Virus record (IMG/VR): IMGVR_UViG_3300018476_000039
Span: 1-25,441 of that record
DNA length: 25,441 nt
Strand: one strand, 5' to 3'
Origin: a virus
Shown: positions 2,508 through 24,479 of the stretch, in pieces
How positions within the stretch are numbered: the first letter of the stretch is position 1
Layout of the letters: the number at the start of each line of letters is the position of its first letter
Position numbers and translations under genes: made by a program
Notes under the pieces: model-generated
Databases searched by the model: none
Seen by the model: only the letters and a program-made list of their open reading frames with translations
Told to the model about the DNA's origin: nothing

Positions 2508-3407
2508 ATGCAACATGGGCCACTGGTTAAGTCTAGGCGCGCAGGCACTCAGCTTGAAATTTACGAACCTGCGCGGCACCGACTGAAAGTCGCTGCCGCA
2601 GAGTTTGGGATCAAGGAAGCTAAGCGGATAAAGGACTGGCCCGCGCTGGAAGCCGCCATCGACGCCAAGATCGAGGAACAGCAGAAGTTCGTCGCGTGGT
2701 GGAAGGGGCATGTCACCGATAAAGGCGGGCGGCCATCAAAGAACCGCGCCGGGATCTCGGCGCAGTTTTCGGAGCGCGACGCCGAACGCCAGACAGGCAT
2801 GAAGCACCAGCGCGTCTCCGACCTAGGCAAGTGGCTGCGGAAGCCGAAGCAGTACCGGGCATATCTGGTCGGGGCTGAGTATCGGGCGGCCTTTCTGGAG
2901 GGGGCGGGAAGCCAGCAAAACCAGCAATCACTTTCCAACGAACACTATACACCGGCAGTCTACATCGAGGCAGCGCGCACCGTGCTTGGTGGAATTGATG
3001 TGGACCCTGCCTCATGCGACGAGGCGAACACGATAGTGCGCGCCAAGCACTACTTCACAGCGAAGAACAGCGGCCTCAAGGCTGACTGGTGCGGCCGGGT
3101 GTGGCTCAACCCGCCGTATGGTGACGAAGCTGGGGCATTTATCGATAGGCTGGACCAGCAACATCGCGCCGGGAATATAACCGCCGCCGTAGTGCTGGTG
3201 AATGCGCACTGCACCGACACGAAGTGGTTCCAGTCACTTTGGAATGGTGACGCGCTATGCTTCACCGACCACCGGATAAACTTCTACGGTGATGACACCC
3301 GCAGCGGATCGACGCATGGAAGCGTGTTCGTCTACTTCGGGCCTGATCGACCCGGCTTCATCCGAGAGTTTACGCGCTTCGGTGCGATTGTAGGGAAGAT
3401 CGCGTGA
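2508..3407 (+). CDS. Phage DNA N6-adenine methyltransferase (Dam-type)
   Basis: The 299-aa product carries the phage Dam-family signature in its C-terminal half: an EHYTP segment, GIDVDPAS at about residues 162-169 (AdoMet-binding region), then WLNPPYG with the catalytic NPPY at 201-204. The family methylates adenine N6 using AdoMet. The N-terminal ~140 residues are helical and basic, include an RQTGMKHQRVSDLGKWL helix-turn-helix-like stretch, and may act in DNA recognition. The start directly follows the stop of the 57-aa gene. The stop overlaps the GTG of the nuclease gene. Likely roles are protection from host restriction or regulation; the target site cannot be read from sequence. Confidence 0.92.
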   Translation: MQHGPLVKSRRAGTQLEIYEPARHRLKVAAAEFGIKEAKRIKDWPALEAAIDAKIEEQQKFVAWWKGHVTDKGGRPSKNRAGISAQFSERDAERQTGMKHQRVSDLGKWLRKPKQYRAYLVGAEYRAAFLEGAGSQQNQQSLSNEHYTPAVYIEAARTVLGGIDVDPASCDEANTIVRAKHYFTAKNSGLKADWCGRVWLNPPYGDEAGAFIDRLDQQHRAGNITAAVVLVNAHCTDTKWFQSLWNGDALCFTDHRINFYGDDTRSGSTHGSVFVYFGPDRPGFIREFTRFGAIVGKIA

Positions 3408-3853
3408 CCATCAGAAACAAAGACGCCTACATGCGAGCGCTGTGGGATTGGGGCTTCCTAAATAATCAGTGCTTTGGAGACACCGGGTGCCAAGTGAGCG
3501 ACATCGATGGTGCCGTCGAGCGCAGGGGGCATGTTATTTTTATAGAAGCAAAGCCGCCCGGCAAAAAGGTTTCGAGGGGACAGATGAAGTTCTTTGCCGC
3601 TTTATCGCAGAGCGGCTTCACGGTCCTAATTGTGTGGGGTGAAACGAATAAGCCGCAGGAGGCTCAGATATGGGAGCCACACAAAGAACTCGCAGGCAAG
3701 AAGATGCCTGCTACAGAAGCGTCCATAATTGAAATTGTGCGCAGATGGTTTGTATGGGTCAACCAAATCCCAGCCAAGGGTGAATTAGATCGGACTGGCA
3801 AATGGCCGATCACGCTTCACTTACAGCCTGAAAAACCAGAGGGCGGTGTATGA
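3404..3853 (+). CDS. PD-(D/E)XK-like nuclease, 149 aa
   Basis: The GTG at 3404 overlaps the methyltransferase stop (GTGA). The product has the layout of a small PD-(D/E)XK (VRR-NUC-like) nuclease: DIDG with Asp35, then a hydrophobic strand ending FIEAK with Glu48-Ala-Lys50, followed by an SRGQ...FF helix and a VLIVWG strand. Such proteins cut branched or single-strand-containing DNA in recombination or replication. Together with the RuvC-like gene 430 bp downstream it suggests two structure-specific nucleases in one operon. Base composition is slightly more AT-rich than its neighbours, a possible sign of separate acquisition. Exact substrate unknown. Confidence 0.8.
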   Translation: MTIRNKDAYMRALWDWGFLNNQCFGDTGCQVSDIDGAVERRGHVIFIEAKPPGKKVSRGQMKFFAALSQSGFTVLIVWGETNKPQEAQIWEPHKELAGKKMPATEASIIEIVRRWFVWVNQIPAKGELDRTGKWPITLHLQPEKPEGGV

Positions 3854-4035
3854 ACCCACCAAGCGCCCGCTACGTGATCATGGACCGCCTGCTGTTCCGC
3901 TACGGCATGGGCCAGATCAACGCCACGCAGTTCGAGGCCGAGATGAAGCAGCACAAGTTCACGCAGGCCGACATCGACAAGTTCTTGGTGGAGTATCGCA
4001 AACGTGAGGCAGTGAAGATGGAGCAGCAGCGATGA
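3850..4035 (+). CDS. 61-aa hypothetical protein
   Basis: The ATG at 3850 overlaps the previous stop by four bases, and its TGA overlaps the next ATG. The product is helical and highly charged, with an FEAEMKQHKFTQADIDKFL segment and no cysteines or membrane helices. No family is recognised. It is kept as real because of the coupling on both sides and its uniform operon setting. Confidence 0.75.
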   Translation: MNPPSARYVIMDRLLFRYGMGQINATQFEAEMKQHKFTQADIDKFLVEYRKREAVKMEQQR

Positions 4036-4283
4036 TTTTCTCTGACAGACTATTCCCGAAACGGAATGATGATGGCGCAGCAAAGCGGTGGCGCGGTCCA
4101 ATGCGAATGCCAGAGCCGCTGATGTGGTATGGCGACGCAAAGACAGTTGAGCCGCCGAACTCAGTTACGTTTCCGATTTGCAGTTTTTGTCGGCATATCA
4201 TTTGGGATTGGCCGCACTTTGAGGAGCCGGTTGCCGACAACAGTGTCTGCGAGGCGTGCTTCAAAGAGGAAGAGTTGGGCTAA
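4032..4283 (+). CDS. 83-aa zinc-finger-like protein
   Basis: ATGA overlap with the upstream gene. The C-terminal half holds CSFC and CEAC pairs about 24 residues apart, with CRH context in the first pair, consistent with a four-cysteine zinc ribbon. The N-terminal part is Arg/Pro-rich. The stop TAA at 4281-4283 abuts the ATG of the resolvase gene. It may bind nucleic acid or a partner protein of the recombination module; no specific function is assigned. Confidence 0.78.
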   Translation: MIFSDRLFPKRNDDGAAKRWRGPMRMPEPLMWYGDAKTVEPPNSVTFPICSFCRHIIWDWPHFEEPVADNSVCEACFKEEELG

Positions 4284-4817
4284 ATGAAATTCACCGGCAA
4301 CGTGCTCGCGCTCGACATCGCGTCGACGATGGGCTGGGCGCTGGGCAAGCCCGGCACGATCCCGACGTTCGGCACCGTCAGCTTCATCAAGCCGGGGCAG
4401 CCACGCGCCAAGGCGCACCGGCAGTTTCGCTTGTGGCTCGACCTGTTCATGTCGGCGCACAAGGTGGCGCTGATCGTGTACGAGAGCCCCGCGATCCCGA
4501 TGATCATGCACGGCCGCACCAACATCGACACTGTCAAGATGCTGATCGGGCTGGCGGAACATCTGGAGGAATGGGCCTATCAGCGGTTCGAGCTACGCGA
4601 GGCGACGGTGTCGCAGGTGCGCTGCCACTTCATCGGCCGCAACATGAAAAGCGCGCTGGCCACGCCATTGACCATCGAAAGGTGCCGTTCACTCGGATGG
4701 AACGTAAATTGTGATGATGAAGCAGATGCTTGCGCGCTATGGGATTATCAGTGCGGCTTCCTGCGGCCTGATCTTGCTGCCAACACCACCCCGCTGTTCG
4801 CACAACGGGTGGGGTGA
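4284..4817 (+). CDS. RuvC-like Holliday junction resolvase, phage type
   Basis: The 177-aa product shows the RuvC/RNase H-fold acidic residues in order: ALDIASTMGWA (Asp11) at the N-terminal strand, IVYESP (Glu67) in the middle, and a CDDEADACAL helix near the C-terminus (Asp144/145 and Asp148). Length matches RuvC (about 170 aa). The family resolves four-way junctions by metal-dependent symmetric nicking; phage versions debranch DNA before packaging. It is the last gene of the 2334-4817 operon and is followed by a strong hairpin at 4899-4932. The start immediately follows the stop of the zinc-finger gene. Confidence 0.88.
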   Translation: MKFTGNVLALDIASTMGWALGKPGTIPTFGTVSFIKPGQPRAKAHRQFRLWLDLFMSAHKVALIVYESPAIPMIMHGRTNIDTVKMLIGLAEHLEEWAYQRFELREATVSQVRCHFIGRNMKSALATPLTIERCRSLGWNVNCDDEADACALWDYQCGFLRPDLAANTTPLFAQRVG

Positions 4818-4898
4818 CGTGGACGTATCCACCGCAACATCTGGTGCTGCGAAAATTATGTTGCGTTCGGCATCGAAGCGGACGTAGCTTGGAAATAC

Positions 4899-4932
4899 GA
4901 GGGGCGGGTGTCAGCAACAACACCCGCCCCTC
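4899..4932 (+). terminator. Strong hairpin at the end of the resolvase operon
   Basis: A perfect 12-bp stem (GAGGGGCGGGTG with its complement at 4921-4932) and a 10-nt loop that can close by one more T-A pair. No U-tract follows, so it may be a Rho-assisted terminator or a 3'-end stabiliser. The 4818-4898 stretch before it contains no convincing gene. Confidence 0.6.
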
Positions 4933-4999
4933 AATCCCGAACCTTGATGCAAAAGGTTAGGATTACTTGTCCGAAACATACACTCTCGGCAAGTATATT

Positions 5000-5261
5000 C
5001 AAGCCCCCAAGTTGTCAAGGTCCCGGTCGGTTCGCGGCAGGGCTGTTGGGTGTGGCTCGAAGGTTCCCCCCCATAGAAGCATGCTGTGACCGTGATGCCC
5101 TGAGCCATGGGGAACGCAGCCTATTGGGGCTGCCCGTTGTCCACTTTCGGATGGCTGACCTAAGAGGCGCGACGAGTACTCCCGCAGGATCGCATTCCTG
5201 CTGCCCGCCAAGGGCTAAGAGCACCCCACAGAGGGTATCTTAGGAGGAAAGTGGAGGTGGT
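5000..5261 (+). promoter_or_regulatory. Long structured 5' leader with SD-overlapping alternative pairings
   Basis: No gene is supported between 4933 and 5261. The stretch holds several stems: GTTCCCC (5063-5069) with GGGGAAC (5109-5115); GCAGCC (5116-5121) with GGCTGC (5128-5133); GCAGGA (5184-5189) with TCCTGC (5196-5201). The last element TCTTAG (5238-5243) overlaps AGGAGG (5242-5247), the best SD-like sequence before the downstream operon. It can pair with CTAAGA at 5215-5220, helped by ACCC (5223-5226) with GGGT (5233-5236), or as TCTTAGG with CCTAAGA at 5159-5165. The two pairings exclude each other. This resembles riboswitch or attenuator logic, but no known class is recognised. An imperfect inverted repeat CTTGtCCGA (4966-4974) / TCGGCAAG (4986-4993) upstream might be an operator. 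Confidence 0.45.
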
Positions 5262-5492
5262 GTGAGCGAAACGCAAAATGGCGAGGACAACATGCCCAAG
5301 ACGATGGACTGGCGAAAGGCCCGCAAGTTCGCTGCAACCGAGGTGAAGTACGACAACGGCACCGTGCTGGAGAATGGTCCGCAGGCTGGACGGGTGATCT
5401 ACAAGCCGGTGCGCGACAGCTTGGAGGCACGCGCGAGAGAGGCCGAAAGGCAGTGGCTCAAGCAAGTTGGTAAGCAGGGAAAGAAGCCATGA
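5262..5492 (+). CDS. 76-aa hypothetical charged protein
   Basis: GTG at 5262 lies 4 nt after GGAGG (5253-5257) and 14 nt after AGGAGG (5242-5247). An internal ATG at 5292, preceded by GAGGA, would give 66 aa and is a real alternative. The product has a TVLENGPQAGRVIYKPV stretch followed by a charged helix and a Lys-rich C-terminus. No family is recognised. It opens the helicase operon directly behind the structured leader, and its stop overlaps the next ATG. Confidence 0.72.
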   Translation: MSETQNGEDNMPKTMDWRKARKFAATEVKYDNGTVLENGPQAGRVIYKPVRDSLEARAREAERQWLKQVGKQGKKP

Positions 5493-5584
5493 CCGTAGCG
5501 TCGTTCTTGTACACCTACTGGTACACGTTCGTCCCGCTGCTGCTGTTGCTGTTGCTGCTGTCGATCACGTCGGTGGCTGACTGA
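5489..5584 (+). CDS. 31-aa single-pass membrane peptide
   Basis: ATGA overlap with the upstream gene and a TGATG overlap with the downstream one. The product is an N-terminal aromatic segment (LYTYWYTF) followed by a run of eight leucines and a short polar tail, so one transmembrane helix. Such short hydrophobic proteins are common in phages. A lysis or membrane-anchoring role is possible but unsupported. The double overlap is the main reason to accept it as a gene. Confidence 0.65.
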   Translation: MTVASFLYTYWYTFVPLLLLLLLLSITSVAD

Positions 5585-5808
5585 TGGACACTGAGCACAG
5601 GGAGTTCCTGCTGTCGGCTTTGCGCACGGCATGTTTGCGCTGCAAGGCGATGGAAAGCGATCTCGGCAGCATCGGGATCGCGCTCAAGGCCGACCTGATC
5701 AGCCCTGACACCGCGGTGCAGTGGATTGAGGATGCCGGGCTGATGTTCCTCGTGCAGCCGCTGCCAGCGACCGTTGGGCTGCTGGCCAAGCAAGGGGGTG
5801 GGCCATGA
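5584..5808 (+). CDS. 74-aa hypothetical protein
   Basis: The ATG at 5584 shares its A with the TGA of the preceding peptide gene. The product is mostly helical, with CLRC at about residues 17-20 and an AVQWIEDAGLMFL helix. No family is recognised. The stop overlaps the next ATG by four bases, in line with the rest of the operon. Confidence 0.75.
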   Translation: MDTEHREFLLSALRTACLRCKAMESDLGSIGIALKADLISPDTAVQWIEDAGLMFLVQPLPATVGLLAKQGGGP

Positions 5809-5990
5809 AGTGGCTGTGCACGACCTGCCGGATACAACCGCCCATCCCCGACAAGCTGCGCTGTCCGGCATGCCATGCGGCTTATGTGCGCGGCCGCCGG
5901 GCTGCATCACTGGAAGGCTGGAGGACACGTCGTCGGATGGCGCGTGCGCGTCGTGACAAGTTGGAAACTCGTGATGGAGCAGAGACATGA
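5805..5990 (+). CDS. 61-aa zinc-ribbon protein
   Basis: The N-terminal half carries CTTC and CPAC pairs about 12 residues apart, a classic short zinc ribbon. The C-terminal half is an Arg-rich basic tail suited to binding nucleic acid. Overlaps of four bases on both sides tie it to the helicase gene. It may be an accessory factor of the helicase, whose own C-terminal domain also has a zinc ribbon; this is inference from position. Confidence 0.78.
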   Translation: MKWLCTTCRIQPPIPDKLRCPACHAAYVRGRRAASLEGWRTRRRMARARRDKLETRDGAET

Positions 5991-7504
5991 AGGAGCTACG
6001 AGACGACCAGACGCAAGCATTGGAGGATTTACGGCGCAACGTGGCGAACGGCCATAAGCGCATCTGCATGCAGGCCCCGACCGGGTTCGGCAAGACCGTT
6101 CTGGCTGGGGCGCTGGTGAACGGTGCCAAGGCCAAGGCGAAGAAAGTGCTGTTCACGGTGCCAGCGGTTGGCCTGATCGACCAGACCGTCGAGATGTTCT
6201 ACGCGCAGGGCATCGAGGACGTCGGGGTGATCCAGTCGCACCACCACATGACCGATTGGTCGAAGCCCATTCAGATCGCGTCAGTGCAGACGCTGATGAA
6301 GCGGCCGATGCCGGAATGCGACGTGGTGCTTGTGGATGAGTGCCACAGGTGGTTCACGATCTACGATCAGTGGCTGTCACAGGATCAGGGCTGGAAGTGT
6401 CCGGTGATCGGGTTGTCAGCCACGCCGTGGACGAAGGGGCTGGGCAAATACTATCGCGGGCCATTTGGATTGCCGAGCGATCAGCAGGAGCAGTGCTTGA
6501 TCGTGGCGTCGACCACAGAGAGCCTGATCGAGCGCGGGCTGTTGTCCAACTTCAAGGTGTTTGCGCCATCGCATCCCGATCTCTCGGGTGTCAGCACCAA
6601 AGCGGGCGACTATCACGAAGGCGAGTTGTCAAAGACGATGCAGAATGGTGCGCTGGTGGCGAATGCGGTCGATACATGGCTGCGGCTGGGCGAGTGCAGG
6701 CCAACGCTGTGCTATGCGGTCGACCGTGCGCACGCCAAGAGGCTACAGCAGGAATTTGAGGCGGCCGGTGTGCCGTGCGGCTATCAGGATGCCTACACGC
6801 CGGATTTGGAGCGCACGCGGCTCAAGATCGACTTTCACAGCGGCAAAGTGCGCGTGGTGGTGAATGTCGGGACGTTGACCACGGGCATCGATTGGGATGT
6901 GCGCTGTATCAGCCTATGCCGCCCCACCAAGAGCGACATACTGTTCTCGCAGATCATTGGGCGTGGATTACGTACAGCACCGGGCAAGGATTACTGTCTG
7001 ATCCTCGATCACAGCGACAATCACCTGCGGCTGGGCTGTGTGACCGATATTGACCAGAGCTACGTCGGCCTGCACGATGGCAAGTCGCCCCCGGAGGCCA
7101 ATCGCACTGACAACATCCGTTTGCCGAAGGAGTGTCCGAAGTGCGCGTTCCTGCGCTCGCCACGGGCGTCGATCTGTCCAGCATGCGGCTTCAAGGCTGA
7201 AATGGTGTCGAGCATCAAGCACGAAGCTGGTGAGTTGCGTGAGTTGCGGCGCAAGCCGAAGCGGCCGAAGGGTGCGTTCGAGGTTGTCGACAAGGCGCTG
7301 TTCTTTGCTGAACTGAAAGCCTATGCGCAGGATCACGAGTACAAGGAAGGCTGGGCAGCCAACCAGTATCGTGAGAAGATCGGGGTATGGCCGAGCCCCC
7401 TCATCAAGCACATTCCGCCTGCGCTGCATGTTTCGCCTGCAACGGTTGGCTGGATCAAGAGCAGGATGATCGCGTGGGCCAGAGGTGTACGGGATGCGCG
7501 GTGA
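5987..7504 (+). CDS. SF2 (DEAD/DEAH-like) helicase with zinc ribbon
   Basis: The 505-aa product contains the SF2 helicase motifs: Q-like DDQTQAL at the start, motif I APTGFGKT (residues 30-37), motif II DECH (117-120), motif III SATPW (144-148) and motif VI QIIGRGLR (322-329). A CPKC/CPAC zinc ribbon follows at 383-400, then a ~100-residue C-terminal region of unknown fold. It matches phage replicative or recombination helicases of the type III-restriction/UvsW-like group, which unwind or remodel branched DNA with ATP. It is the main enzyme of the 5262-7712 operon. The start overlaps the zinc-ribbon gene stop by four bases. Confidence 0.93.
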   Translation: MKELRDDQTQALEDLRRNVANGHKRICMQAPTGFGKTVLAGALVNGAKAKAKKVLFTVPAVGLIDQTVEMFYAQGIEDVGVIQSHHHMTDWSKPIQIASVQTLMKRPMPECDVVLVDECHRWFTIYDQWLSQDQGWKCPVIGLSATPWTKGLGKYYRGPFGLPSDQQEQCLIVASTTESLIERGLLSNFKVFAPSHPDLSGVSTKAGDYHEGELSKTMQNGALVANAVDTWLRLGECRPTLCYAVDRAHAKRLQQEFEAAGVPCGYQDAYTPDLERTRLKIDFHSGKVRVVVNVGTLTTGIDWDVRCISLCRPTKSDILFSQIIGRGLRTAPGKDYCLILDHSDNHLRLGCVTDIDQSYVGLHDGKSPPEANRTDNIRLPKECPKCAFLRSPRASICPACGFKAEMVSSIKHEAGELRELRRKPKRPKGAFEVVDKALFFAELKAYAQDHEYKEGWAANQYREKIGVWPSPLIKHIPPALHVSPATVGWIKSRMIAWARGVRDAR

Positions 7505-7937: not shown

Positions 7938-8525
7938 ATGATCAAGCTGGAGTTCGATTACAAAGAGTTGGAGAAGTATGCCCTACGCTTAGGAGCGTCG
8001 GTCGATCAGATACCATTCGCACTCGCAACGGCAATGAACCGTTCCGCCGATGTGACCCGCAACTTCCTGATCAAGCAGACGTGGCCAGCCCACATCAAGC
8101 AGCGCAATGCCTCCTTCATCGCAGCGTCACTGACCACCAAGGATGCGCGCGCCAACAAGCAGTCCCTGTCAGTCGAAATCTATGATCGTCTCAACAGGGG
8201 CAATCTCAAGATGCAGGCCAAAGGTGGAGTGCGCACGCCCCGTGGTGGCGGCAACCTCGCTGTGCCTGCGTCGAGCGTACAGAAGGGTGCGCGCGGTGTA
8301 CCCTCTCGCCTTCGACCGAAGAACCTCAAGAACAGCTTCAAGGCCAAGGGCATGTTGTTCGCGCGTGATAGTAAGAACCGCGTTCGATTGGTCTATGCGT
8401 TGAAGCCCGCAACGAAGATACCGAAGCGCGTCCCGTTCTATGAGGACTTCGCAGCGTCCATGCAGCGCGAGCTACGCAGGACCATCCCACTGGCAGTCGC
8501 CAGAGCTATGTCGACACGACGCTAG
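7938..8525 (+). CDS. Phage protein, possibly tail-completion or minor tail (gpZ-like)
   Basis: 195 aa, ATG at 7938 with TGGAG about 9 nt upstream. It has AMNRSADVTRNFLIKQ followed by WPAHIKQRNASFI, a basic Gly-rich middle and a C-terminal helix ending near PLAVARAMSTRR. This helix/basic-loop/helix layout recalls phage minor tail protein Z or other tail-completion proteins, which shape the tail terminus or neck. The resemblance is by impression only. Its position, away from the head genes and just after the replication genes, is unusual for a virion protein. Alternative: a DNA-binding phage protein of unknown role. Confidence 0.8.
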   Translation: MIKLEFDYKELEKYALRLGASVDQIPFALATAMNRSADVTRNFLIKQTWPAHIKQRNASFIAASLTTKDARANKQSLSVEIYDRLNRGNLKMQAKGGVRTPRGGGNLAVPASSVQKGARGVPSRLRPKNLKNSFKAKGMLFARDSKNRVRLVYALKPATKIPKRVPFYEDFAASMQRELRRTIPLAVARAMSTRR

Positions 8526-8874: not shown

Positions 8875-9549
8875 ATGGGGGGTGCGGTGGCGGAACTGCG
8901 AGATCGGATCGTCGCGTTGCGGCGAGTGAAGGCGGCAGACCTGCGGGTGAACCCGAAGAACTGGCGCATGCACCCGGACGGGCAGCGCAGTGCGGTGTCG
9001 GAAATGCTGTCCAGCATTGGTTTTGTCGGTGCGCTTGCAGCACGCGAGGTGGATGGTGGGCTGGAGCTACTGGACGGGCATCTGCGGCGCGACATTGCAG
9101 CCGACAGCGAGGTGCCGGTGCTGGTGTTGGACCTCAACGATGAAGAGGCCGACAAGATGCTGGCGACATTTGATCCGCTGGCGGGGCTGGCACTGCCCGA
9201 CAGCGACAAGCTGGCTGACCTATTGAAGGGCATCAGCATCGACGGCAACGCCGAGATCAGCCGGATGTTCGCGGACTTGATGACGACGCTGGAGCGGGAA
9301 GAGGATGAGGACGAAGAGGATGAGCAGCGCGAGGTGGTCGGCATGGCCTTGCAGCCGCACGAGCACTACGACTTCCTCGTTGTGCTCTGCACCACCTCAC
9401 AGGAGTGGAATGTACTGTGCGACAAGCTGGGGCTGGTCCCGCAGAAGAGGCGTGGCCGCATGGGCACCAGCCGGGCGATCCGCGCCGACAAGCTACTGAA
9501 GCTGCTGGAGCAAGTTGCCGAGGGCAAGACAAAGGGGAAAAAGAAATGA
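8875..9549 (+). CDS. ParB/Srx-fold (ParB-like nuclease) domain protein
   Basis: 224 aa. Residues about 20-105 form a ParB N-terminal domain: VNPKNWRMHP, a switch helix SEMLSSIGF, and the LLDGHLRR box at 66-72, followed by VPVLVLDLNDEEAD. An acidic linker (about 142-155, nearly all Asp/Glu) leads to a C-terminal domain ending in Lys-rich sequence. In phages such proteins occur beside packaging or modification genes and may act as CTP- or ATP-using switches or DNA-binding adaptors. A GTG at 8887 is an alternative start. It precedes the glycosyltransferase operon, but a divergent small gene lies between, so a shared function is not proven. Confidence 0.87.
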   Translation: MGGAVAELRDRIVALRRVKAADLRVNPKNWRMHPDGQRSAVSEMLSSIGFVGALAAREVDGGLELLDGHLRRDIAADSEVPVLVLDLNDEEADKMLATFDPLAGLALPDSDKLADLLKGISIDGNAEISRMFADLMTTLEREEDEDEEDEQREVVGMALQPHEHYDFLVVLCTTSQEWNVLCDKLGLVPQKRRGRMGTSRAIRADKLLKLLEQVAEGKTKGKKK

Positions 9550-9789: not shown

Positions 9790-10557
9790 GTGAAACAACT
9801 CGACTACACGATCATCGTTCCATCGCGCCGCCGCGCCCACAACATGCCCTTGTTGTTGCGGCTGCTGCCGACAGCGGTGATCTGCGTGGACGAGCGCGAG
9901 GCCGACGACTATGCAGCGGCAGTGCCGTCGCCACGGCTGCTGCTGCACCCGCCACTTGATGGTCTGCCGCCGGTTCTGAACTGGATCATCGACACCGTGC
10001 GCGAGCCGATCCTGATCACCGTGGACGATGACTTTCAGGGCGTGCAGGCCAACACCGCATCGCGCCGCTACATCACCGATGCCGATGAGATACTGGCGAT
10101 CTTGGAGAACGCCGCGCGCAACTGCCACGACCTTGGGCTTGGCGCGTTCTGCTTCTCACGCACGCCCAACACCACGATCATCCGTCCTGATGAGCGGCCG
10201 ATTGTGCCGACGCAAGTGGTGGCGTCGTGCCGTGGCGTGATGAACGGTGCGCGCACCCGCAAGTACCGCACGGACATGCACGGCCGCGCCGATCTGGACT
10301 GGACCATGCGGACGCTGCTGGAGGATCGCTGCATCTATGCTGACGTGCGGTTCTATTTCGACTTCGGGCCGATCTACTCAGGACGTGGCGGTTCGGTCGG
10401 GCTGATCACACCGGAGGTGTTCGAGGCGTCGTCGCGCGCGCTCAAGCAGCACTGGCCGGGCTGCCTGTCATTCAAGGCACCGGGGTTCATGCGCCGCAAG
10501 AACGTGGCGGCGATGAGCATCCGGGTGTCACGCACATCGAAGCTGGCGCAGCGATGA
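9790..10557 (+). CDS. GT-A-type glycosyltransferase (TAGT/GREB1-like)
   Basis: 255 aa from GTG at 9790 (GGTGGG just upstream; the ATG at 9779 runs into a stop). The fold is GT-A-like: IIVPSRRRA strand and loop, ICVDEREADDY, then the nucleotide-sugar/metal motif VDDDF with Asp79-81, and a late DLDW at 168-171 that may hold the acceptor-side acid. The arrangement resembles the TET-associated and GREB1-like glycosyltransferases that Iyer, Aravind and co-workers described for phage base modification. No TET/JBP oxygenase is in this window, so the acceptor may be DNA, a virion protein or host surface glycan. Its TGA overlaps the ATG of the mutase gene. Confidence 0.82.
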   Translation: MKQLDYTIIVPSRRRAHNMPLLLRLLPTAVICVDEREADDYAAAVPSPRLLLHPPLDGLPPVLNWIIDTVREPILITVDDDFQGVQANTASRRYITDADEILAILENAARNCHDLGLGAFCFSRTPNTTIIRPDERPIVPTQVVASCRGVMNGARTRKYRTDMHGRADLDWTMRTLLEDRCIYADVRFYFDFGPIYSGRGGSVGLITPEVFEASSRALKQHWPGCLSFKAPGFMRRKNVAAMSIRVSRTSKLAQR

Positions 10558-11663
10558 GCCGGGTGCTGGTGGTCGGGGCTGGTCTGTATGGCGCGACGAT
10601 GGCGCGCGAGCTAACGGACGCAGGCCATCATGTGCTGGTGCTGGAGCGCCGCACGCACATCGGCGGCAACGCCTTCACTCGCTGGAACGATGAGACCGCC
10701 TGCCACGAGCACGTCTATGGCGCGCACATCTTCCACACCTCGAACCCGGTGGTCTGGGAGTATGTGCAGCGCTTTGCGACCTTCAACAGCTACCGGCATC
10801 GGGTGCGGGCGATGAGTTCGGGGGTGCTGTATTCGTTTCCGATCAACCTCATGACGCTGCATCAGGTGTTCGGTTCGGCCACGCCGGAGGAAGGGGCCGA
10901 GGCGATGGCGGCCGACTGCATCCCGTGCGACGAGATCAGCAACATGGAGCAGCACTGTCTGGCAACCATTGGGGAGACGCTGTACCGGCTGTTCATCGAG
11001 GGCTACAGCAAGAAGCAGTGGGGTTGCGAGCCGCGGCACCTGCCTGCGTCGACCATCAAGCGCATTCCAGTGCGGCTGGATCACAATGACCGCTACTTTA
11101 ACGATAAGTGGGAGGGCATCCCGGTGGACGGCTACACCGACATGATCCGGCTGATGCTGACCGGCGTGGCGGTAGAGACCGACACCGACATGCTGGAGGC
11201 GCGTGACAACTGGGTCAGCCAATGGGATGCGGTGGTTTACAGCGGCAGCCTTGACGAGTTCTACAGTTACCGGCTGGGGCGGCTGCCGTATCGGTCGCTG
11301 CGGTTCGAGACGCGCATCCTCGATGACAATGATGTGCAGGGCATTGCCGTCATCAACGAGTGCGATTATCCGTTTCCGTCTTGCACCCGGACTATTGAGC
11401 ACAAGCACTTCATGGAGGTGCCGCCGCAGGTCCGCCGCACGCTGCTGACGATTGAAATTCCCGCCAGCGCGGGCGAGCCGTTCTATCCCATCCGCAGCGA
11501 CGAGAGCGACCGGCTGCTGGAGCGCTACCGCAAGCTGGCCGAGCAGGAGCATCCAACCGTTGTGTTCGGCGGCCGGTTGGGCCAGTACCGTTACCTAGAC
11601 ATGCACCAAGTGATTGCCAGCGCACTTGCCAAGTCGCGCGAACTGATGGAGCGCCTGCGATGA
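10554..11663 (+). CDS. glf: UDP-galactopyranose mutase
   Basis: 369 aa, the usual length. It has the N-terminal FAD-binding GAGLYGA (8-14), the ERRTHIGGNAF strand-loop, HVYGAHIFHT, the EGYSKKQWG substrate segment and the C-terminal GGRLGQYRYLDM FAD-contact motif. The enzyme, with reduced FAD, interconverts UDP-galactopyranose and UDP-galactofuranose. Carried between a glycosyltransferase and a sulfotransferase with ATGA overlaps on both sides, it most likely supplies UDP-Galf to the glycosyltransferase. Galactofuranose is rare, so the acceptor is of interest. Conserved motifs are intact, so activity is expected. Confidence 0.95.
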   Translation: MSRVLVVGAGLYGATMARELTDAGHHVLVLERRTHIGGNAFTRWNDETACHEHVYGAHIFHTSNPVVWEYVQRFATFNSYRHRVRAMSSGVLYSFPINLMTLHQVFGSATPEEGAEAMAADCIPCDEISNMEQHCLATIGETLYRLFIEGYSKKQWGCEPRHLPASTIKRIPVRLDHNDRYFNDKWEGIPVDGYTDMIRLMLTGVAVETDTDMLEARDNWVSQWDAVVYSGSLDEFYSYRLGRLPYRSLRFETRILDDNDVQGIAVINECDYPFPSCTRTIEHKHFMEVPPQVRRTLLTIEIPASAGEPFYPIRSDESDRLLERYRKLAEQEHPTVVFGGRLGQYRYLDMHQVIASALAKSRELMERLR

Positions 11664-12364
11664 AGCCACTACTGATGCAAGGGTTGCCCAACTCGGGATC
11701 GACATGGTTTGCCGCCTTGCTCGCCAAGAACATTCGAGGCTGCCGCTACTACGACAAGGAGTTCTTCAACCCAGTGTGCAACATCAAGCACGAGGTGGTG
11801 TTGCGGAAGAATTTCGGCTGCGAACTGGTGTCCTGCTATCGCAACATCGCGACCGCTGGCGGCCCCGGCATCCATGACGACATCCGGGCGACGTGGGGTG
11901 CCGAGAACTACACATTCACCAAGGAGTGCAACAGCGCCTTCAAGCTGCCGGTCTTCATCGAGCACTTCGACTGCTTCGTGTTCCTGCGTTCGGCCAAGAA
12001 CACGTTCCCACCGGGGCGGGCGCGGGTGTGGTCGTTCTACGAGCACGCATGGTGGGCTCTCAGAGAGGCGGGGCATGACGTGGTGGACATCAGCACGCCA
12101 GATCGCGCGCATGAGGCGTTCGGCATCCTCACCGAGGTCATCCTGTACGACGCCAATCGGCTGAAGGTGCCGGTGATCTGGTGGGAGGACTTGGCGGCCG
12201 ATCCAGGGGGAGTGCTCCGCAAGCTGCTGACCGTCACCGGCCTTGACGCGGCGGGCCTGCTCAAGGACATGACAGCGACATTCAAAGACAAAGCGGAGCC
12301 TGCTTTGACAAGCCCCGCCATGCCACGCCAGTCTAGTCCTTGCCCGTCCACGCCAACCACATAA
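11660..12364 (+). CDS. PAPS-dependent sulfotransferase-like protein
   Basis: 234 aa. The N-terminus has the 5'-phosphosulfate loop GLPNSGSTWF (8-17). A FLRSAKN segment (Arg110) and WSFY (Ser125) fit the 3'-phosphate-binding region. The family moves sulfate from PAPS to sugars or other hydroxyls. The next gene encodes an APS kinase, which makes PAPS, so the two fit as donor synthesis and transfer. The ATG overlaps the mutase stop. The last ~20 codons lie in an NNGCC pentamer element (12312-12354) and read as Pro/Ser/Thr-rich sequence unlike the rest of the protein; the element probably inserted and replaced the original end. Confidence 0.82.
   Translation: MKPLLMQGLPNSGSTWFAALLAKNIRGCRYYDKEFFNPVCNIKHEVVLRKNFGCELVSCYRNIATAGGPGIHDDIRATWGAENYTFTKECNSAFKLPVFIEHFDCFVFLRSAKNTFPPGRARVWSFYEHAWWALREAGHDVVDISTPDRAHEAFGILTEVILYDANRLKVPVIWWEDLAADPGGVLRKLLTVTGLDAAGLLKDMTATFKDKAEPALTSPAMPRQSSPCPSTPTT
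12312..12354. repeat. Displaced copy of the NNGCC pentamer element
   Basis: Triplets at 12312, 12317, 12322, 12327, 12332, 12337, 12342, 12347 and 12352 read GCC, GCC, GCC, GCC, TCT, TCC, GCC, TCC, GCC: the same 5-bp register and substitution types as the array at 1-744. The word AGTCCTTGCCC is shared with positions 210-220 apart from one flank base. It is about one higher-order unit long and spans the 3' end of the sulfotransferase gene. Confidence 0.82.
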
Positions 12365-12384
12365 CCTTAAAGGAAAGAGAACCT

Positions 12385-13161
12385 TTGCGCAAACTTCTGA
12401 TCATGGGCCTGCCGGGTGCAGGCAAGACGACGCTGGCGACGCTGGTGGCGGCGCGGATCAACGCCGTTCATTTCAACGCCGATGAGGTGCGGGCGAACAT
12501 CAACAGCGATCTCGGGTTCTCCGAGGCCGACCGGATCGAGCACGCCCGGCGGATGGGGTGGCTGTGCGACCGGGTGGTGGCGACCGGGGGCTTTGCTGTG
12601 GCGGACTTTATCTGCCCTACGGAAGCCGCCCGTGCGGCCTTTTTTTTAGGCGGGGGAGGGTGCCTGATCTTCGTGGATCGCATTGAGGCGGGGCGCTACG
12701 AGGATACGAACAGGCTTTTCGAGGCTCCTGCGGTCCACGATCTGCGGGTGGGGCCGGATGGAACTCCCGAGTATTGGGCCGAGCAGGTGGTGAAGCTGGT
12801 CCGGCCGGTGTTCAACCCGCGTCGGGCGACGGCGCTGATGGTCGGGCGCTTCCAGCCGTTCCATGCCGGGCACAAGGCGCTGGCCGAGGAAGCGATCCGG
12901 CGAGCCGGTCAGGTCTGCATTGCGGTGCGCAACACCATGCGCGACGGCGGCAACCCGTTCGGGTTCGAGGATGTGCGGGCTCGCATCGAGCATGCCATGC
13001 GCGAGCACGAGGGCAAGTTCATCGTGCAGCAGGTGCCGAACATCAGCACCATCCTGTACGGGCGTGACGTCGGCTACAGCATCGAGCGGGTGGACTTGGG
13101 CGAGGCGACGGAAGCTATCTCAGCCACCGCCGCCCGCGCCAAGCTCACGGCAGCTTCGTGA
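12385..13161 (+). CDS. Bifunctional APS kinase / NMNAT-like nucleotidyltransferase
   Basis: 258 aa from TTG at 12385, placed 8 nt after AGGAAAG; upstream in-frame TTGs lie inside the pentamer element and are rejected. The kinase domain has P-loop GLPGAGKT (8-15), then ADEVRANINSDLGFSEADR, the APS-kinase signature, which phosphorylates adenylyl sulfate to PAPS. The C-terminal domain has GRFQPFHAGH with HxGH at 160-163 and an ISATAAR motif at 245-251, as in NMN/cytidylyl-type transferases. The ATP-sulfurylase signature is not evident, so the second activity may make another nucleotide donor or, less likely, APS itself. Rhizobial NodQ fuses APS kinase to ATP sulfurylase for Nod-factor sulfation, a useful analogy. 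A T8 run and terminator-like stem lie inside the gene. Confidence 0.88.
   Translation: MRKLLIMGLPGAGKTTLATLVAARINAVHFNADEVRANINSDLGFSEADRIEHARRMGWLCDRVVATGGFAVADFICPTEAARAAFFLGGGGCLIFVDRIEAGRYEDTNRLFEAPAVHDLRVGPDGTPEYWAEQVVKLVRPVFNPRRATALMVGRFQPFHAGHKALAEEAIRRAGQVCIAVRNTMRDGGNPFGFEDVRARIEHAMREHEGKFIVQQVPNISTILYGRDVGYSIERVDLGEATEAISATAARAKLTAAS
12625..12647 (+). terminator. Terminator-like hairpin inside the APS kinase gene
   Basis: Stem GCCGC (12625-12629) / GCGGC (12634-12638) with loop CCGT, then C and eight Ts (12640-12647). It is short but has an ideal U-tract. It lies in codons for the FF-L segment between two clearly APS-kinase-like blocks that share one frame. Confidence 0.45.
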
Positions 13162-13979: not shown

Positions 13980-14236
13980 CAGCGCCTCCCGTTCGGTGTG
14001 ATCGTGCTCTGCACGCGCCCGTCGCTGCCGTAGATCGTGACGGTGCCGTTACTGCCGGTGGATGTGCGGCCCTGCACGCGGCCGTCGCTGCCGTAGACTG
14101 TGGTGCTGCCGTTCGAGCCGGTATGGGTGCGGGCCTGCACCCTGCCGTCGCGCCCGTAGATGGTGGTGCTCTCTGCGCGCAGATCGTGCGGCCAGAGCAT
14201 CAGCAGCGCGAGCGCTGCGGCGGTGATCCTGCTCAT
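13979..14236 (-). CDS. Secreted 21-residue tandem-repeat protein
   Basis: 85 aa: a signal peptide (hydrophobic AAALALLML and likely cleavage after LRA, near residue 21), then three copies of a 21-residue repeat at 23-43, 44-64 and 65-83 with core YGSDGRVQ and TGSNG. The DNA repeats with a 63-bp period. Secreted proteins with similar short Tyr-Gly-x-Asp-Gly-Arg repeats are found widely in Proteobacteria and their mobile elements. A periplasmic or envelope role is likely; the copy number could vary by recombination. ATG overlaps the upstream stop (ATGA), and GGAGAC lies 5 nt upstream. Confidence 0.8.
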   Translation of the reverse strand: MSRITAAALALLMLWPHDLRAESTTIYGRDGRVQARTHTGSNGSTTVYGSDGRVQGRTSTGSNGTVTIYGSDGRVQSTITPNGRR

Positions 14237-14466: not shown

Positions 14467-15054
14467 TCATTCCTCGAACAGGTCGTCTGCGGTCTTCGTT
14501 TTCGGCTGCTTCATCTTGAGTGCGAGCATCTTGTAGGCACGATCCTCGTACTGATCCTTCGCGACCGGCGGCACCAGCTTGGTACTTTCCTTGCGGAAAA
14601 AGTCGAGCCCACGCCCGCGCCTGCGTCCTTCATGGGTGTGATGGTCATAAGCGAAGTCTGGAATACTCGGCACGTAGCCGCCGATCTGGTTCGCGAGCCC
14701 GAAGGCGATCCCGAAGTGATCCCCCTCGCGCGACTTTTGCGCCCGGCACATCATCCTGATCGCATTACCGATGCACATGCGCGACGCGCCGATCTTCTGC
14801 GGGTCGTACCATCGCATTGCCTGCGCACAGGCGGCGGCGACAAATGGGACGATGCGGGGGTCGGCGGCGGTGTCGATATCCTCGTGCGATATGATCTCCA
14901 GCCGCCTGCACACCATCGAGTGGTACGCCTTGCTGCTGTGGATCAGTTCACAGGCGAACTGCATCGCCTCTTCCTCCCCGCCGCGCCGGATGCACTTCTG
15001 CATCGCGGACAGGCACGCCATCGCGGGCAGGTCGTTGTGGGTCTTGGGCATCAT
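14467..15054 (-). CDS. Stand-alone MgsA/RarA C-terminal-like domain protein
   Basis: 195 aa with two adjacent ATGs (15054, 15051) and GGAGCA 5 nt upstream. Segments HSMVCRRLEIISHEDI, AMRWYDPQKIGASRM and the HTHEGRRRGRGLDFFRKE motif recall the helical C-terminal tetramerisation domain of MgsA/RarA AAA+ clamp-loader-like ATPases. The ATPase itself (Walker A/B) is missing. Such an isolated domain might interact with host replication-fork or clamp-loading proteins; this is inference from weak similarity. Confidence 0.8.
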   Translation of the reverse strand: MMPKTHNDLPAMACLSAMQKCIRRGGEEEAMQFACELIHSSKAYHSMVCRRLEIISHEDIDTAADPRIVPFVAAACAQAMRWYDPQKIGASRMCIGNAIRMMCRAQKSREGDHFGIAFGLANQIGGYVPSIPDFAYDHHTHEGRRRGRGLDFFRKESTKLVPPVAKDQYEDRAYKMLALKMKQPKTKTADDLFEE

Positions 15055-17469: not shown

Positions 17470-18201
17470 TCAGTAACTGCCGCCGGTTTCCTGCTGATGC
17501 TCCAGCCATGCGGCCAGACTGGTTTTGTAATTGCCGACGACCGGCCGCACCCGCTTTTTTAGTTCTGCGCTGGCGCGATCTGCCTCGCGCGCGGCGGCAC
17601 GGATTTTGGCGCGCGCCGCAGCGCGATCCGGCGACACAGGCACCCATGCACGCTGCGCGGCGGGCAGCACGGCGGTCGGCTCCTGCTTGACCTTGCGCGG
17701 ATCAGCGGCGGACGGCTGGCGGCCAGTGCGGCGGATGCGCTTGCGCTCGACATGCGACGGCGCTTTCGCATCGTGCGCGTGCTTGAGCGCTTCCTTGAGC
17801 GGCCACAGCTTGAGCCCGAAATCTTTGTAGCCCTGCCGCACGCCTTTGAAGTAGCCGACTGACGGCGGATAGATGCCGGACGAATTCATCGTGTAGATCA
17901 TCACTTCGGTTTCGCCATCCGGCAGCCCGGCGACTTGGATGTACTCTTTCGAGTACATGCCGCTGTCGGGATAGCGCGGGTCAAAGCCTTCGTAGCGGTC
18001 CAGCGCCTGTTCGCACTTCGGCGTGAGCCGCCACAGCCCGCCGGGGCAGGTTGCACCATCTTCTGCGATCACATCGCAGACACGGCGAAAAACGAGCCGG
18101 GTGTCGGGGAGGTAGAACTTGCCGAGCGGCGTCGCGGCCGGGCATCGGCGTGCCATCTGCGAAAGGTCGAGATTGCTGCCATAGGCGAAATAGAGGGTCA
18201 T
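17470..18201 (-). CDS. Gamma-glutamylcyclotransferase (GGCT/AIG2)-like protein
   Basis: 243 aa, ATG at 18201 with AGGAGCA 6 nt upstream. The N-terminal ~130 residues show the GGCT fold: YFAYGSNL (4-11) as the substrate loop and LDRYEG with Glu71 as the likely general acid/base. GGCT-like enzymes cleave gamma-glutamyl amides to 5-oxoproline. The ~100-residue C-terminal part is basic and helical, not part of the family core, and may bind nucleic acid or a partner. An amidoligase gene lies one gene upstream; the ligase/GGCT pairing has been described in phages and predicted to make and remove gamma-glutamyl-type links (Iyer, Aravind and co-workers). Confidence 0.85.
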   Translation of the reverse strand: MTLYFAYGSNLDLSQMARRCPAATPLGKFYLPDTRLVFRRVCDVIAEDGATCPGGLWRLTPKCEQALDRYEGFDPRYPDSGMYSKEYIQVAGLPDGETEVMIYTMNSSGIYPPSVGYFKGVRQGYKDFGLKLWPLKEALKHAHDAKAPSHVERKRIRRTGRQPSAADPRKVKQEPTAVLPAAQRAWVPVSPDRAAARAKIRAAAREADRASAELKKRVRPVVGNYKTSLAAWLEHQQETGGSY

Positions 18202-18240
18202 CGGTTTTGCTCCTGATCGGTGTCCGTTTTGAAAGTAAAG

Positions 18241-18268
18241 CAAAGCTGGACTGTGCGGTCCAGCATTG
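18241..18268 (-). terminator. Terminator after the 73-aa gene
   Basis: Stem GCTGGAC (18245-18251) / GTCCAGC (18258-18264) with 6-nt loop, extended past an A-A mismatch by CAA/TTG. On the minus strand it is followed by T-rich sequence (TTTGCTTTACTTTC). Confidence 0.7.
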
Positions 18269-18558: not shown

Positions 18559-19626
18559 TTAAGCGCGGGCGGCGGTGGCTGCCGCGCGCGCGCGGGTCGC
18601 GTAGAATGCGCGCTGGTCCGCGTCCGCTTCGATTAGGTCCGCGAAACCGTCGAGCGTGGTGGGGAAAGCGGCGGTCGCGGTGTCGGTCGTGACGGCGCTT
18701 CCGTGTATCGCGTGAAAACGATCCTTGCCGGTGCGGCTGTCGCGGGTGACGTAGTACGAAAGGTCCGCGTCGCGAAGCTGCTTGCGCGCGCTAATCGTGG
18801 CGTAGCCGTATGCGGCGCGAATTTCCTCGTTTGTTGCGCCTTCCGCGCGGGCGATAAGGGTTGCGACGTGGGCTTGCTTTCCTGCGAGACGGGAAAGGTC
18901 CCAAGAAATCGCGCGGACGATCTGTGCTCCGGTTTCGCCTGTCTTGCCTGCCTTGGCGGTCGCGACGAGCCGGAGACAAGTTACGATCCAATTTGTGGCC
19001 TTCGCGGTGTCGACCGTTCCTGCGTGCTGGCGAAACTCTACCGTTTTGTGCTTGTCGAAAGCGAGGACGTTGACCTTGTGATACCGGACTGCGGCCGCGC
19101 CGCTGGCGCGCGCGATAGCGTATCCTAGCGAAGTAAGGTCCCGCGCGCCGTCGATTGCCTCGCGTGAAACGAGCGAAACCGTTTTGGCGTAGCTTGCCTC
19201 GTTGCCGCGCCGCGAAACCGGCATAAGCGCGTCGATTGCGGTCTCGTATCGGCTATAGAGTTTTACGAGTGTCTTGAAAAAATCGAGCCCTTGATCGCGC
19301 GCGCCGACGTGAACGTGAAAGCCGCAAGTGGAGTTTACCGTCGCGCCCATTTGGCGAAGCGCGGCGAGGACCTTGGCGACCGATGCGAGGCCCGTATCGC
19401 CCGAAAGAATTGGGCCGACAAATTCTAAGCCGTGAACGCCGCGACCGCGAACCGATCCATCCGTGACGACTTTCCATGCGCCTGCCGGTGCGCCTTCCAT
19501 GCGGGGATGGACGTATTCCCCGATGAGACGGGAAAGTTCGGCGGCCGCGCCGCTTTGCGTGAAGCGATAGGGGAGAAGAACCTCGAACTCGGGGCCGAAG
19601 GTGAGATTGGCGATCGCTGCGTGCAT
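18559..19626 (-). CDS. Putative amidoligase (carboxylate-amine ligase family)
   Basis: 355 aa, ATG at 19626 with AGGAGCA 4 nt upstream. It shows the amidoligase-type glutamine-synthetase-like fold: FGPEFEVLLP (10-19) with metal-binding Glu13/Glu15, LEFVGPIL (67-74), CGFHVHVGA (101-109) and VEFRQHAG (196-203). The family joins a carboxylate to an amine with ATP, making amide or gamma-glutamyl links on small metabolites, peptides or proteins. It is first in the minus block and sits 358 bp from the GGCT-like gene. The substrate is unknown; roles in wall, peptide or protein tagging are all open. Expression is likely set by leader element B. Confidence 0.86.
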   Translation of the reverse strand: MHAAIANLTFGPEFEVLLPYRFTQSGAAAELSRLIGEYVHPRMEGAPAGAWKVVTDGSVRGRGVHGLEFVGPILSGDTGLASVAKVLAALRQMGATVNSTCGFHVHVGARDQGLDFFKTLVKLYSRYETAIDALMPVSRRGNEASYAKTVSLVSREAIDGARDLTSLGYAIARASGAAAVRYHKVNVLAFDKHKTVEFRQHAGTVDTAKATNWIVTCLRLVATAKAGKTGETGAQIVRAISWDLSRLAGKQAHVATLIARAEGATNEEIRAAYGYATISARKQLRDADLSYYVTRDSRTGKDRFHAIHGSAVTTDTATAAFPTTLDGFADLIEADADQRAFYATRARAAATAARA

Positions 19627-19691
19627 TTTGTGCTCCTGCGGTTGAACCGGGTGTCCGCCCGGTGTCGGCTGCGGCCGACGACTAGGAACAT

Positions 19692-19853
19692 AGCACCGGC
19701 CGGACGAAAGAAAAGCATTTCTTTCCTTTTCCGGCACCCGCATGGGAGGGCACCGCCGGACGCATGGCGGGGGTCCGTTCGACATTTGTTCCAGCAAAAA
19801 GTGCCCGTTTCTGTAGGGCAACTTGAACACACAATAGGAGGGTCGCTGGCGCG
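19692..19853 (-). repeat. Leader element B (upstream of the amidoligase gene)
   Basis: Counterpart of the element at 17178-17328, with two conserved blocks (19692-19745 and 19835-19853). On the minus strand the stem keeps GGAAAG but its partner is CTTTTC, so one G-C pair becomes G-U and the RNA stem is retained. Confidence 0.75.
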
Positions 19854-19984
19854 TTTTCCTGCCTGCCGCGCTAGGTCTTATCGGGCACCCCCGGATGCCT
19901 GCCCCCCGCCCATCCCTGCCCATCTGCGGGGGCGTTGCCCCCGGAAGATGCCGCTGGAGCCCGTGGCCCGGACCGGGCAGTGTG

Positions 19985-20012: not shown

Positions 20013-20738
20013 ATGGCGGAACCAGAAGCCGGAACGGTATCGGCTGAACAGGCTATGCTCTTGCTCCTGCTCGACAGCGCCGCCGAATTGAAACGGCTGG
20101 AACGCGAGGGCGCTTTCCAGCAGATCGCCCCCGGACGCTATTGGCTGAAAGACCTTGTACAGGGTTTCGTCCGGCACTCGCGCGAGCACCGCAACGTGAC
20201 CGACAGTGGTGTTCTGGCGCGATGCTGGAACCTGACCAGCGCCCGCGTCGGGCAGCTTGCGCGCGAAGGCTGGTTCAAGTCGCTGGAGGGCACGCATGGC
20301 AAATACGATTGGTTCGATGCCTGCGCTGGCTTCATCCGTTACTTGCGCGACGAAGATCGCCGCTCAACCAAGTCGGCAGCAGAGACGCGCATCCGCGATG
20401 CCAAGGCACGCGACATCGAGGTGCGCACGCAGCAGCGGCTGTCCCGCCTGATCCCGCTGGATGTCTACGAGGAAATGATCGACGGCATGGCAGGCATGGT
20501 AAGGAGTGAGTTTGCCGGGCTGGCGGCGGCAACAACGCGCGACCTCACCATGCGGCGGATGATCGAGAGGGAAGTCAATGCAAGGCTCAGGCGGATCGCA
20601 GAGCACGCAATGGCACAAGCCATACGGCTTGAGGCGGCTGGCAGCGCTGATGATGCCGTCGGAGCCGACCGAGCCGGACCTGTGGGCAGCAGCCAATCGG
20701 ACCTACCCAGCAACGGCGGCGGTGCCCGGACCACGTGA
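20013..20738 (+). CDS. terS: Terminase small subunit (Nu1-like)
   Basis: 241 aa, ATG at 20013, GGGAGG at 19999-20004. The N-terminal half has a winged-helix-like region (VLARCWNLTSARVGQLAREGWF) that would bind the packaging site; the middle has KSAAETRIRDAKARDIEV, the helix that assembles small terminase subunits, followed by long helices. This arrangement is that of lambda Nu1-type proteins, which recognise the packaging start and recruit the large subunit. Its 3' end overlaps the large-subunit gene. Confidence 0.82.
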   Translation: MAEPEAGTVSAEQAMLLLLLDSAAELKRLEREGAFQQIAPGRYWLKDLVQGFVRHSREHRNVTDSGVLARCWNLTSARVGQLAREGWFKSLEGTHGKYDWFDACAGFIRYLRDEDRRSTKSAAETRIRDAKARDIEVRTQQRLSRLIPLDVYEEMIDGMAGMVRSEFAGLAAATTRDLTMRRMIEREVNARLRRIAEHAMAQAIRLEAAGSADDAVGADRAGPVGSSQSDLPSNGGGARTT

Positions 20739-22605: not shown

Positions 22606-22620
22606 CACTACGCACTGGTC

Positions 22621-24467: not shown

Positions 24468-24479
24468 AGGAACGACATC

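Follow-up and report, generated by a model that had tools for sequence, protein, structure and literature searches.

Why would a phage carry, side by side, genes for a glycosyltransferase, a nucleotide-sugar enzyme, a sulfotransferase and an APS-kinase-like protein, and what would their products act on? Such a block occupies positions 9790-13161 of the stretch analyzed here (the window; 25,441 nucleotides of the virus record IMGVR_UViG_3300018476_000039), in the order glycosyltransferase (GT), UDP-galactopyranose mutase (UGM), sulfotransferase (ST) and KIN, an APS-kinase-like/nucleotidyltransferase fusion. Since a relative of DNA sugar transferases is combined here with sulfate and sugar enzymes, a decoration with a sulfated sugar is probable. 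The soil phage family to which the window belongs probably decorates something, perhaps its own DNA, in this way, and we consider it fairly probable that the genes form a phage-encoded module that glycosylates and then sulfates.

The enzymes of the block

Two ATGA overlaps join GT to UGM and UGM to ST, and the gap of 20 bp between ST and KIN contains the ribosome site AAGGAAAGAG; GT starts with GTG and KIN with TTG (position 12385). The gene coordinates, the overlaps and the gap are those of the original prediction, which had read the block as a coordinated set of a GT-A glycosyltransferase, a UDP-galactopyranose mutase, a PAPS-type sulfotransferase and an APS kinase fusion. All four genes are under purifying selection (dN/dS of 0.15 for GT, 0.35 for UGM, 0.30 for ST and 0.21 for KIN). 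Neither an Rfam match nor a tRNA was found in the window, and no membrane segment in the five proteins (the mean hydropathy over 19 residues never exceeds 1.4 in the cassette).

The modelled structure of GT (P0001; 9790..10557, plus strand; pLDDT 82) has a GT-A fold with an acidic metal motif; the DDD motif covers residues 79-81, of which D80 and D81 are invariant in the homologues. The protein stays about 1 bit below the cut-off of the TAGT family PF20691 (E 7.4e-6; 26.5 versus 27.5 bits), a family matched by 19 of 21 GT homologues with a best E-value of 5.7e-14, and it matches phrog_842 (E 3.8e-9). Moreover, its best Foldseek matches among the viral models of BFVD were TAGTs, the named ones reaching an E-value of 4e-12, with generic GT2 enzymes behind (4e-6). 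Judged from profiles and modelled fold, P0001 belongs to TAGT, the family of phage DNA sugar transferases, which refines the GT-A assignment.

The identity of the mutase (P0002; 10554..11663, plus strand) was confirmed by the equivalog TIGR00031 (317.5 versus 303.75 bits). The protein matches the structure 1i8t (E 1.7e-91), with a conserved FAD motif and active-site segments, and would be the predicted source of UDP-Galf in the window phage. Relatives of UGM are numerous in phages, in other gene contexts. Another phage UGM (L002) is located within a sugar cluster adjoining tail genes.

In the case of ST (P0003; 11660..12364, plus strand), conserved motifs and fold uphold the PAPS-type sulfotransferase, but a Pfam match above the cut-off is absent. 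The protein has a 5'-PSB loop (LPNSGSTW) and a 3'-PB segment (FLRxA...RVWSFYEHAW), and the PAPS-binding motifs are kept in 6 homologues. The best PDB matches of its AlphaFold2 model (pLDDT 80) in VIA-align were PAP-bound tyrosylprotein sulfotransferases (Z 11.3), a similarity of fold that says nothing about the acceptor. Foldseek with the model yielded nothing significant (weak kinase-like P-loop folds ranked first), Pfam and PHROGs gave no accepted match (Sulfotransfer_3, PF13469: E 0.007, 17 bits versus 27), and a scan with the ST alignment gave zero additional phages. The P0003 family is a separate, diverged branch of sulfotransferases.

The predicted APS kinase fusion, KIN (P0004; 12385..13161, plus strand), matched the Pfam family APS_kinase (PF01583: E 9e-14, 52.2 bits versus a cut-off of 21.1) but failed the apsK equivalog TIGR00455 (49.3 versus 138.7 bits). 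The best APS-kinase-like match covers residues 4-84, and residues 148-256 or thereabouts form an NMNAT-like HxGH nucleotidyltransferase domain with the motif GRFQPFHxGH. KIN also matches APS kinase structures (E 4e-8), PF01467 (E 2e-6) and phrog_10255 (E 2e-51). It carries a P-loop and a DLGFSxxDR segment, and in KIN and nearly all close relatives H/Q replaces the Asn of the ENxRR motif of aligned APS kinases. The listed matches of the C-terminal domain were CTP_transf_like/NMNAT profiles, with no ATP sulfurylase profile among them.

KIN may instead be an enzyme of nucleotide or NAD salvage outside sulfation, with the sulfotransferase taking its PAPS from the host, and we regard this as a real possibility, albeit the less probable one. 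It would fit the NMNAT-like C-terminal domain, the missed apsK cut-off, the lack of KIN in a GT-UGM-ST locus elsewhere (L008) and the KIN relatives of Stenotrophomonas phages, which adjoin NADAR. However, the segment DLGFSEADR is identical to that of a solved APS kinase (1d6j/3cr7), and KIN clusters significantly with sulfotransferases of several families. Indeed, sulfotransferases are found near the viral relatives of KIN (n = 47), in four Pfam kinds, one of them fused to a GT, and in 20 KIN records 8 of 10 sulfotransferase domains lie within 6.5 kb of KIN (1.9 expected; P 5e-5). Plain NAD salvage was ranked below the module.

Conserved core and exchangeable parts

We compared 20 distinct GT loci, 19 of them viral and one in a Bradyrhizobium prophage; 391 genomes of the Bradyrhizobium family returned the known prophage only. 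A sulfotransferase accompanies GT in 14 of these loci (the GT homologues without ST are those of L010, L011, L065, L071, L015 and L077), either directly after GT or next but one, past UGM or a small gene. It belongs to one of two separate families, P0003-like or Sulfotransfer_2-like (ST2), and at least five changes of the ST state were counted on the GT tree. At L012 and L013 ST2 is masked by an opposite-strand frame and was recovered by profile search. The nucleotide-sugar enzymes linked to GT differ as well, and include UGM, an SDR epimerase/dehydratase and UDP-glucose dehydrogenase. Partial combinations occur, such as GT-UGM-ST without KIN in L008 and ST2-KIN in L016, but the exact set GT-UGM-ST-KIN was seen in the window only. 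A coordinated sugar and sulfate set in phages was thus recovered, though not the precise four-gene combination, and the homologues are not scattered without co-occurrence: GT-ST and KIN-ST neighbourhoods are found in relatives.

Two members of the core had been overlooked in the original prediction. The first encodes a ParB-like protein (P0005; 8875..9549, plus strand; phrog_723/620) with a ParB/Srx fold and an extra C-terminal domain, and is present upstream of GT in every GT relative whose contig extends there. The second (14467..15054, minus strand) encodes an MgsA_C-like protein, i.e. one with a RarA C-terminal domain (PF12002, E 6e-5, sub-threshold). Only the ParB-like, GT and MgsA_C-like genes are common to all eight of the eight compared phages, the virion genes of which differ. 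In Microbacterium phages the ParB-like gene precedes GT and the MgsA_C-like gene follows it, and the cultured ones combine the trio with UDP-glucose dehydrogenase. Arthrobacter phages have an MgsA_C-like gene without ParB-GT, so the gene also exists outside the module. At one locus (L063) a Mom DNA-modification gene lies immediately upstream. The fixed partners of GT are the ParB-like and MgsA_C-like genes, whereas UGM, ST and KIN are exchangeable tailoring parts; as a whole, the original prediction is partly supported.

The acceptor

In the proposed module, UGM would convert host UDP-Galp to UDP-Galf, the TAGT-type GT would attach the sugar to an acceptor that the ParB-like partner marks or presents, P0003 would pass the sulfate of PAPS on to the transferred sugar and KIN would increase the PAPS supply. 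The most likely acceptor is phage DNA, followed by one of the core proteins and lastly by a glycan on the host surface. Given the module, phage DNA has close to an even chance; it is favoured by the nature of the ParB-like and MgsA_C-like partners, by the fact that the trio alone is shared and by the Mom gene at L063. Phage DNA would then be decorated after replication, as a protection against nucleases. The most specific version, in which sulfo-galactofuranose is put directly on the DNA of the window phage by a ParB-guided TAGT and the PAPS-dependent sulfotransferase, so that a hypermodified, charged base would arise with no known base hydroxylase involved, is somewhat unlikely. A hydroxylated base for a DNA glycosyltransferase is not evident, since homologues of the TET/JBP and thymidylate-synthase types were not found: TET/JBP (PF12851) was absent from 23 records and thymidylate synthase/dCMP hydroxymethylase (PF00303) from 22 phage records, which are possibly fragments with partial annotation, and neither TET/JBP nor thymidylate synthase turned up when 30 proteins of a complete Microbacterium phage, most of them without annotation, were scanned against Pfam.

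That the sulfated sugar is borne by a protein, be it a virion protein or one of the two core partners of GT (ParB-like, MgsA_C-like), is unlikely. The two partners are the sole other genes common to all compared phages, the L002 mutase adjoins tail genes, and the P0003 model is nearest to protein-tyrosine sulfotransferases, although that likeness does not indicate the acceptor. Yet the TAGT relatives of known function act on DNA (PMC13216743). Moreover, virion genes vary among trio-bearing phages, and a lineage-specific virion protein is an unlikely acceptor because the trio is all that these eight phages, with their differing virion genes, have in common.

Bacterial surface-glycan clusters can contain UGM and sulfotransferases, and one relative is a Bradyrhizobium prophage, both of which would suit a conversion of the host surface, where a host glycan (e.g. 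rhizobial LPS or capsule) is altered and other phages are excluded. Nevertheless, such a conversion is very doubtful: the cassette has no membrane segments, flippase or polyprenyl-phosphate transferase, the core partners are DNA-type genes, and the trio is also present in lytic Microbacterium phages, whose cluster EC has no repressor or integrase (PMC7302621). Serotype conversion of the gtrABC type, whose membrane flippase and polyprenyl glucosyltransferase are absent from the cassette, was ranked below the module. Least probable of all are chance neighbours, unlinked cargo genes without a common product: the complete set is confined to the window, and relatives of UGM and KIN are numerous in phages in other gene surroundings, but the ATGA overlaps, the purifying selection and the recurrent GT-ST adjacency with non-homologous replacement of ST argue against it.

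Relation to known systems

The T6-type TAGT (beta-glucosyl-HMC-alpha-glucosyltransferase, PF20691) is likewise phage-encoded, profile and fold place it in the GT-A family of P0001, and solitary TAGTs without alpha/beta-GT were reported for 288 of 753 phage genomes (PMC13216743). In contrast to the T6 type, no hydroxymethylcytosine genes were found here, GT is locked to the ParB-like and MgsA_C-like genes, and sulfotransferases and sugar-nucleotide enzymes come after it. Microbacterium phages of cluster EC (Quhwah, KaiHaiDragon, Metamorphoo) have the same trio in the same order, in a block ParB-GT-UDP-glucose dehydrogenase-'AAA-ATPase', but neither ST family was found in a profile search of those phages, and their GT is only 27% identical to that of L015. 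Other phage UGMs (phiM9, Agrobacterium and Streptococcus phages) are of the same family, mostly at 37-44% identity; the annotated neighbours of the phiM9 UGM are unrelated, and an adjoining TAGT or sulfotransferase is absent. Marine phages carry PAPS-sulfotransferase-like genes with a function stated as unclear (PMC10580990), whereas the genes described here are tied to a defined GT partner and an APS-kinase-like gene. Like PAPS synthetase, which joins APS kinase and ATP sulfurylase, KIN has an APS-kinase-like part N-terminal to an HxGH nucleotidyltransferase, but its kinase is shortened and diverged and its second domain matches NMNAT/cytidylyltransferase instead of ATP sulfurylase.

We found no paper that joins UGM, phage and sulfotransferase, nothing relevant that joins phage sulfotransferases with DNA modification, and no close relatives of GT, ST or ST2 among 50,697 named phages; to our knowledge, the decoration with a sulfated sugar is a chemistry known from no phage. 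Solitary TAGTs are common in phages, with unknown products (PMC13216743), and phage sulfotransferases have been without a known role (PMC10580990); the two are now linked in one conserved module with named fixed partners, for which lytic Microbacterium phages, available in culture and sharing this core, are a ready test bed. The module is a variant of TAGT glycosylation, and a sulfated sugar on DNA, if real, would be a new nucleobase chemistry and a new layer of the restriction arms race.

Layout of the cluster and its surroundings

The four-gene layout of the original prediction was borne out in its coordinates, its two ATGA overlaps and its 20-bp gap. On the plus strand of the window, a virus contig of 25,441 bases, a glycosyltransferase gene (GT, 9790-10557) overlaps by ATGA with the gene of UDP-galactopyranose mutase (UGM, 10554-11663), which in turn overlaps by ATGA with that of a sulfotransferase-fold protein (ST, 11660-12364); the 20-bp gap, containing a AAGGAAAGAG site, then precedes the gene of an APS-kinase-like fusion protein (KIN, 12385-13161). 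The terminase, portal and head protease genes occupy 20578-25441 and the Dam-type methyltransferase, RuvC-like and helicase genes 2508-7504. The first kb of the contig is 70% GC, with GC-rich low-complexity tandem repeats at the left end (14-101 and 658-710), and a further tandem repeat (period 63, 2.6 copies, 14009-14170) lies between minus-strand genes. A Tail-completion/Neck1-like gene (7938-8525), remote from the structural block, is found upstream of parB, an order that is kept in the related loci L011, L074, L076 and L080. On the minus strand, a gamma-glutamyl-cyclotransferase-like gene (phrog_2520, 17470-18243), seen again in L008, L010, L012, L014 and L073, neighbours an amidoligase gene (phrog_2443, 18559-19923); the pair may serve in amidoligase-based tagging or in a cell-wall system.

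Identity of the encoded proteins

Judged from its sequence, the assignment of UGM is beyond doubt: it scores above the TIGR00031 cut-off in a profile search and matches structure 1i8t with an E-value of 1.7e-91. The predicted glycosyltransferase nature of GT stood as well, and its family could be specified as TAGT, the phage DNA-sugar-transferases. PF20691 is the sole Pfam match of the window GT, at 26.5 bits and thus under the cut-off of 27.5, and the protein also matches phrog_842 (beta-glucosyl-HMC-alpha-glucosyltransferase). Among its 21 homologues 19 match PF20691 (best E 6e-14) and none matches another Pfam family, and the top viral matches of its structure model (pLDDT 82) are TAGT proteins, with generic GT2 enzymes far behind. 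That ST is a PAPS-type sulfotransferase was supported by conserved motifs and model alignment, although Pfam gave no accepted match. Its PSB loop (LPNSGSTW) and 3'-PB segment are kept in six homologues, and PAP-bound tyrosylprotein sulfotransferases give the best alignment to its model (Z 11.3, 175 residues aligned), rows 1-16 of the alignment list being sulfotransferases without exception; Foldseek by itself returned nothing significant for this model.

KIN combines an APS-kinase-like with an NMNAT-like domain. The two are split over adjoining genes in L045/L046, and the kinase domain occurs by itself (135-148 aa) in L050 and L057-L060, some of which have sulfotransferases close by. The clustering of sulfotransferases near KIN supports a PAPS-related role, as far as gene neighbourhoods can tell: sulfotransferase domains lie within 6.5 kb in 8/10 cases against 1.9 expected (P 5e-5; 20 KIN records). 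GT2 and Sulfotransfer_3/1 are the Pfam families most frequent among neighbours of KIN relatives, the sulfotransferases being of the Sulfotransfer_1/3, _2 and _4 types, and in L017 (6670-7998) one protein, followed by a KIN homologue, joins a galactosyltransferase-like N-terminal part to a Sulfotransfer_4 domain. However, KIN is found in phages that have no sulfotransferase as well, and in Stenotrophomonas phages it is a neighbour of NADAR.

Conserved core and variable partners of GT

Comparison of the window with seven longer relatives, two records being covered except for small parts, revealed exactly three genes common to all eight phages: those of the ParB-like protein (8875-9549, plus strand), GT and an MgsA_C-like protein (RarA C-terminal domain; 14467-15054, minus strand). 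Two of the eight lack terminase and portal homologues and have other virion genes in common; the trio therefore crosses phage types. With the distant GT of L015 as lead, 56 Microbacterium phage records were retrieved, where KaiHaiDragon and Metamorphoo have the order ParB, GT, UDP-glucose dehydrogenase and MgsA_C-like 'AAA-ATPase', as confirmed by profiles.

Single-protein scans and a GT alignment scan, plus the prophage of Bradyrhizobium sp. BRP22 (L080), yielded 20 distinct scorable GT loci, window included, after exclusion of duplicates and the truncated L064. A ParB-like gene lies upstream of GT in every locus whose contig extends there, and a sulfotransferase accompanies GT in 14 of the 20. 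It is ST-like in the window, L008, L063, L068, L069 and L070, and Sulfotransfer_2-like in L012, L014, L066, L067, L073, L074, L076 and L080 (seven of these backed by Pfam); the two kinds share 15-20% identity, a likeness at superfamily level only. No sulfotransferase adjoins GT in L010, L011, L015, L065, L071 and L077. The sulfotransferase state changed at least five times on the GT tree, several branches of which are weak. UGM was found in the window, L008 and L064; L010, L065 and L066 carry a sugar-nucleotide gene of the SDR type.

Acceptor and proposed pathway

DNA is the favoured acceptor, because the TAGTs characterised so far act on DNA (PMC13216743, PMC13390438), the fixed partners of GT resemble DNA-handling proteins, the carriers have no virion genes in common, and in one relative a Mom family protein (L063:6606-7160; PF25680, E 1.6e-10) is encoded immediately upstream of the ParB-GT-ST set. 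No Mom homologue was found in the remaining fetched loci. Against DNA counts that a search for a base-hydroxylating gene of known kind found none. After DNA, the likeliest acceptor is one of the core proteins. The lack of a membrane segment in any cassette protein speaks against a gtr-type surface conversion.

The function of phage sulfotransferases has been stated to be unclear (PMC10580990), and we found no paper on phage UGM together with a sulfotransferase, nor any that connects phage sulfotransferases with DNA modification. GT belongs to an already known family; for its association with ParB/MgsA_C and with sulfotransferases our searches turned up no earlier description. To the gene set, member families and conservation demonstrated here we add a proposed pathway with DNA as the favoured target: UGM would convert UDP-Galp to UDP-Galf, the TAGT-type GT would move the sugar to the acceptor, ST would sulfate that sugar with PAPS as donor, and KIN may help the PAPS supply.
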